From an uncultured Anaeroplasmataceae bacterium (GTDB lineage: Bacteria; Bacillota_I; Bacilli_A; Acholeplasmatales; Anaeroplasmataceae): a stretch of DNA of 64,000 nt. Where the stretch lies: positions 62,001-126,000 of the forward strand of contig CANRFF010000005.1 in assembly GCA_947629825.1 (NCBI GenBank), in the 5' to 3' direction. The notes under the pieces are model-generated. The model saw only the letters and a list, made by a program, of their open reading frames with translations, was not told where the DNA came from and did no database searches. The translations under genes and the position numbers were made by a program. Positions 50,984-54,530 of this stretch are shown here, in pieces (positions within the stretch are counted from its first letter, which is position 1; every line of letters starts with the position of its first letter).

Positions 50984-51010
50984 AAAGGAGGAAAACTACC
51001 TTCGTAGTTG
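50984..51010 (+). promoter_or_regulatory. plsY ribosome binding site with intervening hairpin
   Basis: AAAGGAGG (50984-50991) is followed by a perfect 6-bp hairpin AACTAC-CTTC-GTAGTT (50994-51009). The first in-frame start, TTG, is at 51008-51010, 16 bases from the GGAGG; the codon before it is a stop. The hairpin would shorten the effective distance or hide the start. Confidence 0.6.
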
Positions 51011-51727
51011 ATCGATACCATGTTTCATACGGCTCTTTCGGCACTGGATATTTCCATTGTCATCTTTTTTATCATTCTTTCCTATATTTTGGGTTCTATT
51101 CCTTTTGGATTGGTCATCGGGAAATGTTTTTGTCATAAAGATATTCGTGAATTCGGAAGTAAAAACATCGGTTCTACCAATGCGATTCGGGTTTTGGGAA
51201 AAAAAGTCGGATTTTTCGTCTTTTTCATGGATGTTTTTAAAGGAATGGCCGTCATTCTTCTTTTAAAACTTCTCGATGCGACGCACGTTTGGCACAATCC
51301 GATCGATCCGTTTTTTTACGGAGCCGTTGCGATTCTGGGACACTGTTTTTCCATTTTTTTGAATTTCAAAGGAGGAAAGGCCGTTGCGACCTCTTTAGGT
51401 GTGGTTCTGGTATTGACGCCGATTCCCGCTTTTTCCTGTTTGATCGTCTTTTTGATTGTTTTGTATACGACGGGCTATGTCAGCCTTTCTTCCACCGGAG
51501 CCACGGTTACCGTGATCGTAACCACTTGGATTTTATATGCTTTCGGAGTTGAAAACGCATCGGATTTCGGCACGTATTTTATTGCCAAACCGACGTTGCT
51601 TTTATGTATCTTGTATTCCGTTTTGGCATGGCTCATCATCATCAAACATTTTAAAAATTACAAACGTCTGATTCAGGGTACCGAAAACAATTTCAAAAAG
51701 AAAAAAAGAAATTCCCAAGAAAATTAA
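51008..51727 (+). CDS. plsY: Glycerol-3-phosphate acyltransferase PlsY
   Basis: Integral membrane enzyme transferring acyl from acyl-phosphate to glycerol-3-phosphate, the first step of phospholipid synthesis. 239 aa. Motifs: SYILGSIPFGLVIGK (motif 1), FGSKNIGSTNAIRVLGKK (motif 2, phosphate binding), ILGHCFSIFLNFKGGKAVAT (motif 3). About six membrane helices. The start is unusual: TTG at 51008 or ATG at 51020, both far from the ribosome binding site because of a hairpin. The stop shares bases with the terminator palindrome where the insertion sequence lies. Confidence 0.94.
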   Translation: MIDTMFHTALSALDISIVIFFIILSYILGSIPFGLVIGKCFCHKDIREFGSKNIGSTNAIRVLGKKVGFFVFFMDVFKGMAVILLLKLLDATHVWHNPIDPFFYGAVAILGHCFSIFLNFKGGKAVATSLGVVLVLTPIPAFSCLIVFLIVLYTTGYVSLSSTGATVTVIVTTWILYAFGVENASDFGTYFIAKPTLLLCILYSVLAWLIIIKHFKNYKRLIQGTENNFKKKKRNSQEN

Positions 51728-51747
51728 AGTTCTCTTTCGAGAACTTT
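51726..51747 (+). repeat. Left 22-bp terminator palindrome (target duplication of the IS)
   Basis: AAAGTTCTC-TTTC-GAGAACTTT, identical to 53523-53544 on the other side of the IS. It abuts the left inverted repeat exactly. It is the stem-loop of the plsY terminator. Confidence 0.92.
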
Positions 51748-51749
51748 CA

Positions 51750-51790
51750 GACTGTTGACAAACTAAAAATGTTAACAGTCTTTTCTTTTT
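51750..51790 (+). terminator. Left-end internal terminator of the IS
   Basis: GACTGTTGAC pairs with GTTAACAGTC over 10 bp (one G-T), then TTTTCTTTTT. The 5' arm lies in the inverted repeat itself. It would stop read-through from plsY into the transposase. Confidence 0.72.
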
Positions 51791-51849
51791 ACCTAGAGTT
51801 ATACAGTGGATAAATATTTCTGGCTTATAAGTGTCAAAAATGGTATAAT

Positions 51850-51858
51850 ATAGATAGG
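51850..51858 (+). promoter_or_regulatory. -10 region of the transposase promoter
   Basis: Extended -10: TGG followed by TATAAT about 25 bp before the transposase start. No clear -35 was found. Confidence 0.45.
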
Positions 51859-51875
51859 AAAAGAGTGATGAATTT

Positions 51876-53405
51876 ATGCTGACTAAACACGATAATATAG
51901 GTAATTTTAATATGATATTTTCTACTTTAGAGGAGTTGGTTCCACAAAACCATTCTGTTAGATTATATGATAATGCGATAGATTGGAAATTCATCTATCC
52001 GTTAGTTGAACACCTATATTCATCTGTTGGTAAACCATCAATAGATCCAATAATTTTATTTAAGATGATATTCTTAAATTATATCGATGGAATTCATAGT
52101 TTAAGAAAGACAGCTGAAAGATGTAAAACAGATGCTGCATATAGATGGTTTTTAAGAATTAATTTTGACCAAAAGGTTCCTGATCACTCAACTATTTCTC
52201 AAAACTTAAGAAGAAAATTTTTAGAAACGAATTTATTTAAAGAAATATTATTGAAAATAGTTAAAGAGGCTTATATTTGTGGATTTATAGATAATGAAAA
52301 TGTATTTGGTGATTCTACTCACGTAAAAGCTTGTGCTAACAAAAAGAAACATCAAGATCAAATTGTAAAAGCTACTGAAAACTTATACTATGAGGATTTA
52401 AAAAAAGATATTAATAGTGATAGAGAAGCTCATGGTAAAAAACCAATAAAATTTGATGATGAAGATAATGATACACCAAACTCATCAAATACTGGTGGTT
52501 GTGATGATAAGTTAATAAAAGCTGATGATGAAGATGTATTAGTTGATAACGTTGAAGATGAGAACGGAAATGTAGAAAAAACTATTACTTATGATCAAGA
52601 AACTGGTGAAGTTATTGAAAACAATGCTAATATCAAATTTAAACATATTAAACGAAGTACTATAGATCCAGATGCTGGGTTTTATCATAAGGGTGAACAT
52701 GAAAAACAATTTGCTTATTCAGCTAGTGCTTTATGTGATAAAAATGGTTTTATTTTAGATGCTTATATTACTAGTGGAAATATTCATGATTCTATTTCAT
52801 TTAAAGGCTTATTCGATAATTATAAGAATCACTTTTTATATGAAAGCACGGATTTATTTTGTTTTGATTCTGGTTATAATTCACCTAGTGTTATAAAAAC
52901 AATATTAGATGAAGATAAAGATATTTTAGTTCCATATTCTAGGCCTAAAACTAAAGATGGATTCTTTAAAAAATATGAGTATGTATATGATGAGCTAAAT
53001 GATGCCTATATATGTCCAAATAATGAATTCTTGCATTATTCAACAACTAATAAAAAAGGATACAGAGAATATAAGTCTAATCCAGAAAAATGTAAGAGTT
53101 GTCGATTTTTAAAACAATGTACTGAAAGTAAAAATCATGTTAAGCTTGTTACTCAACATGTATGGAATGAATATATTGAAAAAGCTACAGATATTAGATA
53201 TCGTATCGGTAATGACAAGATATATAAAAAAAGAAAAGAAACAATCGAAAAATGCTTTGCTGATGGTAAAGAAAATTTCGGTTTAAGATTTACACGATAT
53301 AAAGGTCTCAAGCGAGTTGCGTCCAGCATCTTGCTCCTTTTCTCTTGTATGAATTTTAAAAAGTTAGCCTTATGGAAAGCTAAGGCTCAAACTAGTATGG
53401 CATAG
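51876..53405 (+). CDS. IS1182-family transposase
   Basis: 509-aa DDE transposase catalysing cut or copy of the element. N-terminal DUF772-type domain: KMIFLNYIDGIHSLRKTAER and FDQKVPDHSTISQNLRRKF. Catalytic acids are recognisable in VFGDSTHVKACANKK (first Asp), LFCFDSGYNSP (second Asp) and KRKETIEKCFADGKENFGLR (Glu). A four-Cys region (CPNNEF ... KCKSCRFLKQC) sits between. No frameshift or stop: it looks functional. Codons are strongly A/T-ending and use AGA for Arg, unlike neighbours. The ribosome binding site is weak. Confidence 0.95.
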   Translation: MLTKHDNIGNFNMIFSTLEELVPQNHSVRLYDNAIDWKFIYPLVEHLYSSVGKPSIDPIILFKMIFLNYIDGIHSLRKTAERCKTDAAYRWFLRINFDQKVPDHSTISQNLRRKFLETNLFKEILLKIVKEAYICGFIDNENVFGDSTHVKACANKKKHQDQIVKATENLYYEDLKKDINSDREAHGKKPIKFDDEDNDTPNSSNTGGCDDKLIKADDEDVLVDNVEDENGNVEKTITYDQETGEVIENNANIKFKHIKRSTIDPDAGFYHKGEHEKQFAYSASALCDKNGFILDAYITSGNIHDSISFKGLFDNYKNHFLYESTDLFCFDSGYNSPSVIKTILDEDKDILVPYSRPKTKDGFFKKYEYVYDELNDAYICPNNEFLHYSTTNKKGYREYKSNPEKCKSCRFLKQCTESKNHVKLVTQHVWNEYIEKATDIRYRIGNDKIYKKRKETIEKCFADGKENFGLRFTRYKGLKRVASSILLLFSCMNFKKLALWKAKAQTSMA

Positions 53406-53430
53406 TATATGCTTTATACTAGTTTTTTTT
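53391..53430 (+). terminator. Terminator of the transposase gene
   Basis: ACTAGTAT (53391-53398) pairs with ATACTAGT (53416-53423), followed by a T8 run. The stop codon lies in the loop. Confidence 0.8.
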
Positions 53431-53477
53431 CTTTACTTTTGACTTTTTAATTGAATTATCCACATAAAAAAGACAAA

Positions 53478-53509
53478 CCCTTAGTTTCATTTCAAAAAAA
53501 CTAAGGATT
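53478..53509 (-). terminator. Right-end stem-loop of the IS, minus-strand terminator
   Basis: CCTTAGTTT and AAACTAAGG arms; on the minus strand a T-rich stretch (GTTTGTCTTTTTT) follows. It would stop transcription entering from the cotJ side. Confidence 0.55.
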
Positions 53510-53522
53510 TGTCAACAATCTG

Positions 53523-53544
53523 AAAGTTCTCTTTCGAGAACTTT
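53523..53544 (+). repeat. Right 22-bp terminator palindrome
   Basis: Same sequence as 51726-51747; on the plus strand it keeps the original T6 tract (TTTTTTCTTT) that made it the plsY terminator. Confidence 0.92.
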
Positions 53545-53557
53545 TTTCTTTGCCGGA

Positions 53558-53590
53558 AAATAAAAAAATATATCAAATCATTGATATACC
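53558..53590 (-). terminator. Terminator of cotJC
   Basis: TATATCAA-TGAT-TTGATATA (53569-53588) then TTTTTTT on the minus strand, overlapping the cotJC stop. Confidence 0.82.
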
Positions 53591-54144
53591 TTAAACATTT
53601 CCTGATAGTGTTTTAACGCCTCAGCAAAACGTTGATAGTGAACGATTTCTCTTTGTCGTAAGAAAGAAAGCGGACCTAATATTTCCGGATCGTCCGTCAA
53701 ATCCATCAAATGTTCATAGGAAGCTCTCGCTTTGGATTCGGCTGCCATATTTTCATTCAAATCGGTAATCGGATCTCCCGTAGAAGCAATGTATGCGGCA
53801 GTAAACGGATTTCCAAACGAATCCGACGGATAAATTCCCAATCCGTGTTCCACATAATTACATTCAAATCCGGCCTCTTTGATTTCTTCTTTGGTCGCAC
53901 CTTCGGTCAATCCTTTGATCAATGCCATTAAAATTTCGACGTGAGCCAACTCTTCCGTTGCGATTTCAACCAGTAAATTCTGGCCCACTTTATCCGGCAT
54001 TGTCGGCGCTTGCATCAGATATCGCACACCGCTGGCCAGTTCCCCGGCAGGTCCTCCGATGGCCGTAATCACTTCTTTGGCAAAGCCTAGATTCTTTTTA
54101 CTGACGGAAACCGGAAATTCCAGATGTTTTTTGTATTCCCACAT
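53578..54144 (-). CDS. cotJC: Spore coat protein CotJC (manganese catalase family)
   Basis: Spore coat-associated ferritin-like di-manganese protein. 188 aa. Opening MWEYKKHLEFPVSVSKK, then GGPAGELASGVRYLMQAPTM, EIATEELAHVEILMALI (metal-binding Glu/His) and LRQREIVHYQRFAEAL are the CotJC signature. The ATG at 54144 overlaps the preceding stop by one base (TAATG); the longer frame begins with TTG inside the partner gene. Its presence with sigK supports a sporulation-capable lineage. Catalase activity is a family inference. Confidence 0.94.
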   Translation of the reverse strand: MWEYKKHLEFPVSVSKKNLGFAKEVITAIGGPAGELASGVRYLMQAPTMPDKVGQNLLVEIATEELAHVEILMALIKGLTEGATKEEIKEAGFECNYVEHGLGIYPSDSFGNPFTAAYIASTGDPITDLNENMAAESKARASYEHLMDLTDDPEILGPLSFLRQREIVHYQRFAEALKHYQEMFKVYQ

Positions 54145-54530
54145 TACGAACGAACCTCCCAAGTCATTTTTCTTTCCGAAAAACCATCCAAAACCGGAGA
54201 ACCGCTACAAAGGGCTCCATGTTTCATTTCGATGAAATCTTTCAGTTTTTCTTTTTCCGTATTGACTTTTTTCAGAGTTTCTCTGGCTTCCTGATCTTCC
54301 GGATGCGTATCGCAGAAAAGCGATACATCCACATGGATGAAACAGTAAACCTGAAGCATATAAAGCAGTTGTTCTTCTTCCGTCAGATTGGAAATTTTTT
54401 CTACGACAAATTTATAAGGAGAAAAGAGATTTTCCCAAGCGGAACCTCTCAAGAATCCCTCTTCGATATCACTTTTCAACTGAAATGGCTGAGAGTTGAT
54501 TTCCAATGTTTTTATATTTATCACTCCCAT
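54144..54530 (-). CDS. Fused CotJA-CotJB spore coat protein
   Basis: 128 aa. The N-terminal third (DIEEGFLRGSAWENLFSPYK) matches the end of CotJA (pattern EAL-xG-x-W-x-L-x-PY). It passes without a break into a CotJB-like helical domain (LTEEEQLLYMLQVYCFIHVD, LFCDTHPEDQEA, KLKDFIEMKHGAL) ending in KMTWEVRS. Normally cotJA, cotJB and cotJC are three genes. Start uncertain: the ATG at 54530 has no clear ribosome binding site, and a GGGAGTGAT lies immediately after it that would suit a non-ATG start some 13 bases further on. Operon with cotJC. Confidence 0.75.
   Translation of the reverse strand: MGVINIKTLEINSQPFQLKSDIEEGFLRGSAWENLFSPYKFVVEKISNLTEEEQLLYMLQVYCFIHVDVSLFCDTHPEDQEARETLKKVNTEKEKLKDFIEMKHGALCSGSPVLDGFSERKMTWEVRS

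Follow-up and report, generated by a model that had tools for sequence, protein, structure and literature searches.

Evidence that a clade of IS1182-family insertion sequences takes hairpins, mostly intrinsic terminators, as targets and duplicates them

IS1182-family elements with the end motif CAGNNTGNNGACAAA form a clade whose members probably use hairpin-forming palindromes, most of which are intrinsic terminators, as insertion sites, with the entire hairpin becoming the target-site duplication. Comparison of copies and empty sites shows a duplication that is palindromic, variable in length and centred on the hairpin axis, the empty sites of four related insertions holding a single hairpin each. 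DDE transposases normally produce target duplications of near-fixed length, since the spacing of their strand-transfer sites on duplex DNA is fixed. The element from which the comparison starts is located in a stretch of 64,000 nucleotides, hereafter called the window, of an uncultured Anaeroplasmataceae bacterium (assembly GCA_947629825.1, contig CANRFF010000005.1, positions 62,001 to 126,000 of the forward strand).

Insertion site and element in the window

The window transposase matches the NCBIfam model of IS1182 transposases (NF033551) with 373.6 bits (cut-off 270), in agreement with the IS1182-type assignment given in the initial annotation. The element features a single long ORF for a transposase of 509 aa between the terminal inverted repeats CAGACTGTTGACAAA and CAGATTGTTGACAAA (Table 1), and is the sole copy found in its genome assembly. 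As initially described, two perfect copies of a 22-bp palindrome, AAAGTTCTCTTTCGAGAACTTT, abut both inverted repeats. The left copy adjoins CAGACTGTTGACAAA and the right copy directly follows TTTGTCAACAATCTG, which sets the bounds of the IS at 51748–53522. These two exact matches are the only ones in the whole window, in which no third copy was found even when three mismatches were allowed (shuffle expectation 0.00).

The palindrome folds into a 9-bp stem with a 4-nt loop. The direct repeat is identical to the target hairpin in 22 of 22 bases, and its ends coincide with the feet of the hairpin. plsY and the cotJC-like gene are convergent on this site, with the left palindrome copy overlapping the plsY stop codon by 2 nt. 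The claim that only the right copy keeps a U tract is correct for the forward strand. It does not hold for the reverse strand, on which AATTTTCTTG comes after the left copy, and this copy scores as terminator-like too. Another palindrome, ACTAGTAT...ATACTAGT, with a run of T behind it, was observed at 53391–53431. Overlapping the 3' end of the transposase gene, it probably serves as the terminator of that gene.

Table 1 Features of the insertion site and the IS1182-family element in the window
Feature	Position	Strand	Basis or remark
plsY, glycerol-3-phosphate acyltransferase	51008..51727	+	ORF, PF02660 match; reads toward insertion
Left 22-bp terminator palindrome copy (target duplication)	51726..51747	.	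Exact match, 9-bp stem, 4-nt loop
IS1182-family insertion sequence, 1,775 bp	51748..53522	+	Bounded by inverted repeats and direct repeats
Left inverted repeat CAGACTGTTGACAAA	51748..51762	+	Sequence
Inward terminator-like hairpin and T tract, left IS end, inverted repeat included	51749..51790	+	
Transposase, 509 aa, DUF772 and DDE domain	51876..53405	+	NF033551; PF13751, PF05598, PF01609
Inward terminator-like hairpin and T tract, right IS end	53466..53513	-	Pairing and fold
Right inverted repeat CAGATTGTTGACAAA	53508..53522	-	Sequence
Right 22-bp palindrome copy, then TTTCTTT	53523..53544	.	Exact match; terminator-like on + strand
cotJC-like Mn-catalase-family gene	53578..54162	-	PF05067 match; reads toward insertion

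Hairpins at the ends of related elements

Related elements were gathered from genomes and plasmids with the window transposase as query, and their ends were placed by the motif CAGNNTGNNGACAAA near the transposase gene, blind to hairpins. Relatives with such ends occur in Bacillota, Fusobacteriota and Pseudomonadota. A stem-loop was located within 2 nt of 107 out of 118 distinct IS ends (zero offset in 83), which are not all independent because the set holds several copies from one genome, G160, so that a formal p-value is not to be taken at face value. The corresponding control values were 5.5% at positions 12–60 nt farther out and 3.5% at random flanking positions. G160 is the clostridial genome that also harbours locus L030; its copies of a related element, intact or decayed, number more than ten, and most of them touch hairpins.

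The duplicated hairpins

Direct repeats of 16–35 bp flank the IS in 24 of 42 complete copies, and all 24 repeats are hairpins. For comparison of the centres, hairpins were called without use of the repeat boundaries. The centre of the repeat was found to be the centre of the hairpin in 20 of the 24 cases and was off by at most 1 nt in three. At L118, another nearby hairpin scored higher, yet the 16-bp repeat of this copy is a palindrome too. Both repeat ends lie no more than 3 nt from the outermost base pair in 16 copies, while potential pairing runs 4–9 nt past the repeat, on at least one side, in seven further ones. The cut is thus placed symmetrically around the hairpin axis, though not in every case at the outermost pair that could form. 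A tight correlation between repeat length and maximal stem length was considered and rejected: r is 0.46 (p = 0.02), a moderate value that reflects the frequent continuation of potential pairing beyond the repeat.

An A- or T-tract was present on at least one side of 23 of the 24 duplicated hairpins, and on both sides in 14, indicating that most of them are intrinsic terminators, often bidirectional. In published data on IS–gene neighbourhoods, IS1182 is over-represented between convergent genes (PMC9208149). Since nearly all targets look like working terminators, the tracts would also fit an alternative in which the transposase or a partner senses transcription at terminators, in the form of a hairpin in the nascent RNA, a paused RNA polymerase or local supercoiling, with the duplication still spanning the hairpin. 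We regard this explanation as improbable. It leaves both the symmetry of the repeats about the hairpin axis and their site-dependent length unaccounted for, and the duplicated hairpin of L092 has neither an A- nor a T-tract, which suggests that a hairpin by itself may suffice as target. In addition, non-terminator inverted repeats are among the targets of IS1272, an example being one in agrC (PMC4923244).

Empty sites and the ancestral state

Empty sites are known for four related insertions in sister plasmids. Three of these are letter-perfect, and each of the four holds one hairpin where the filled site holds two. The Enterococcus faecium plasmid pELF_AA55 is identical to the joined flanks of the pELF_AA94 insertion in 500 of 500 bases and carries one hairpin. 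For the K. oxytoca insertion, the joined flanks are matched by IncC and related plasmids (best match 400 of 400 bases), this query being covered to at least 80% by 1,030 records. Three Providencia/Proteus plasmids are identical to the joined flanks of the Providencia insertion (400/400 bases), and an E. raffinosus plasmid with one hairpin matches at 97.7% across the junction. Together with the matching duplications, the empty sites of these relatives support the initial proposal of an insertion at a terminator with duplication of the whole stem-loop. The one-palindrome empty site that was to be looked for is thus present for related elements.

A literal empty site for the window insertion was not found; relatives in the genus are only ~73–78% identical in the cotJC protein. 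They are too diverged for a base-by-base comparison, so that only the presence of one hairpin is comparable. A single terminator hairpin follows cotJC in each of ten genomes of the same genus, as read by eye from diverged sequences. In another genus of the family (genome G113), two copies of a closely related element have left ends that touch terminator hairpins, and their transposases are 79–80% identical to that of the window over the first 129 residues. The right ends of these two copies were sought and not recovered.

At L050 and L055, plsY and cotJC lie next to each other in convergent orientation, with two terminators between them, one per gene. This arrangement lends some credit to the notion that the IS inserted without duplication between two identical tandem terminators that already existed, which we nevertheless consider very unlikely. 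The terminators at L050 and L055 differ in sequence, and a perfect 22-bp repeat at both IS ends would have to be a coincidence that is needed again in 23 other copies. Besides, each of the four empty sites holds one hairpin. The view that the hairpin is part of the IS and carried at both ends, rather than a duplicated target, is less credible still: hairpins do occur at the ends of nearly all copies and the IS ends of the clade bear hairpins of their own, but near-identical copies have unrelated flanks (L073 and L076; L081 and L082), which assigns the hairpin to the target instead of the IS, and the empty sites already hold the hairpin, which contradicts this view unless they are excision products.

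Copies without matching repeats

The expectation that other copies have matching hairpin duplications was borne out for the 24 copies described above, but not for 18 of the 42, although most of these touch hairpins. In this class, two different hairpins are mostly located at the two ends. Examples with two different hairpins and no direct repeat are L004, L022, L024, L030, L036, L039, L042 and L073.

In G160, the partner of one mismatched hairpin sits at another copy (L107/L088), as expected from inter-copy exchange or chimeric assembly. Inter-copy recombination as sole cause of the mismatched flanks was rejected. It fits G160, but fails for the four genomes of this class with only one assembled copy (L006, L022, L024 and L042), and for L022 in particular, the left hairpin of which occurs a single time in its genome. 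The mismatch pattern would also arise if the two ends attacked two neighbouring hairpins and the intervening DNA was lost; a later adjacent deletion would be a further route. The flanks of L080 and L081 in E. faecium are unmatched as well. For L080, the left flank gave matches to genes of IS256-family transposases, and a plasmid in which the two flanks are joined was not found, which makes a secondary rearrangement likely. Exchange in G160 and rearrangement at L080 and L081 explain the mismatched copies only partly.

Terminator-like hairpins within the element and predicted effect on the host genes

Using one criterion for all ends and letter-shuffled ends as control, an inward terminator-like hairpin was identified among the distinct ends of the clade at 49 of the 54 right and 25 of the 51 left ones, compared to 7 of 1,050 shuffled ends. 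In the window, the hairpin at the left IS end is among those identified (fold −8.1 kcal/mol, z −2.36), and the one at the right end consists of 17 pairs followed by TTTTTT (−12.5 kcal/mol, z −5.90).

Following insertion, each of the convergent genes is predicted to meet first the duplicated stem, now lacking its U tract, and next an intrinsic terminator borne by the IS, an order that makes continued termination of both genes plausible. In the initial annotation, the insertion was regarded as nearly harmless on the grounds that both genes keep a stem-loop. The stem is indeed kept on each side, whereas the U tract facing the host gene is lost, and it may be the IS-borne terminators that account for much of this 'harmlessness'.

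Position within the IS1182 family

In the transposase tree, the 29 elements of the CAGNNTGNNGACAAA end type, including that of the window, form one clade (SH-aLRT 98), apart from IS1272/ISSau3, ISMsp1, ISCfr1 and ISKpn6. The tree results from a quick maximum-likelihood search and contains some long branches. The interrupted copy L016 is on a very long branch, hence its placement is uninformative.

ISEfa7, an IS1182-family element of E. faecium, belongs to the same clade as the window element, although the identity of the transposases is only ~40% and several ISEfa7 copies have rearranged flanks. The pELF_AA94 copy, which is annotated just as 'transposase' but is a close match, duplicates a 25-bp hairpin and has a perfect empty site. 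ISCfr1, ISKpn6 and ISMsp1 share with the window element a transposase annotated as IS1182 family. In contrast to the CAGNNTGNNGACAAA clade, they have different ends, and no hairpin duplication was found in the sampled copies, which were single ones.

IS1272 and TnSha1 resemble the CAGNNTGNNGACAAA clade in their IS1182-family transposase and in their targets, which are described as inverted repeats, often intrinsic terminators, without sequence consensus. IS1272 is reported to remove the target hairpin wholly or partly and to leave no target duplication (PMC5678879, PMC4923244). The CAGNNTGNNGACAAA clade, on another branch of the tree, keeps the hairpin and duplicates it. Two intact hairpin copies are present at the window IS, which sets it apart from stem-loop replacement of the IS1272 type. 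The duplication of palindromes that was initially ascribed to the IS1182 family is therefore to be narrowed: it applies to the CAGNNTGNNGACAAA clade and not to the family as a whole, given IS1272, ISCfr1, ISKpn6 and ISMsp1.

Proposed mechanism

For the CAGNNTGNNGACAAA clade, the data suggest that the transposase recognises the DNA by its fold and not by its sequence. We infer a cruciform and a strand-transfer chemistry as follows. The target hairpin would be extruded as a cruciform, and at the four-way junction the transposase would link the two 3' ends of the IS to the 5' feet of the arms, one end per arm. There, the spacing of the 5' feet would be independent of arm length and the points of attack would be close in space. 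Repair of the gaps would then leave a copy of the arm on either side of the IS, whatever the length of the arm. With attack at both 5' feet of the cruciform, the size of the hairpin would set the length of the duplication.

Such an attack was depicted by Wan et al. (2017) as hypothetical pathway b of their Fig. 13; in the part of the article consulted, it is drawn as a possibility without an example (PMC5678879). According to a paper from 2025, the action of these transposases may or may not entail duplication or deletion of the target, and a DNA structure may be what they recognise (PMC12056078).

That IS1182-family elements target hairpins is already known. No account of whole-hairpin duplication as a rule for a broad clade, backed by empty sites, turned up in the literature searched, to which ISfinder and the reviews by Siguier et al. 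did not belong. Nor did that literature yield a demonstration of an attack of the pathway b type. The Siguier reviews are said to describe palindromic targets in IS1182. Priority for the hairpin-duplication rule is thus uncertain.

Significance

Hairpin-centred duplications of 16–35 bp in one clade point to structure-directed integration. Combined with the reported deletion of hairpins by IS1272, they represent two opposite outcomes in one family and open the cruciform model of Wan et al. to direct tests. For annotators, a simple rule for locating the exact ends of such elements follows. We see about equal reason to accept and to doubt the wider picture, in which a structure-choosing clade of DDE transposases would have its duplication length set by the hairpin, and an IS with inward terminators would reside in terminators as an insulated, near-neutral passenger. 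Structure-directed integration would also account for insertions next to genes that do little damage.
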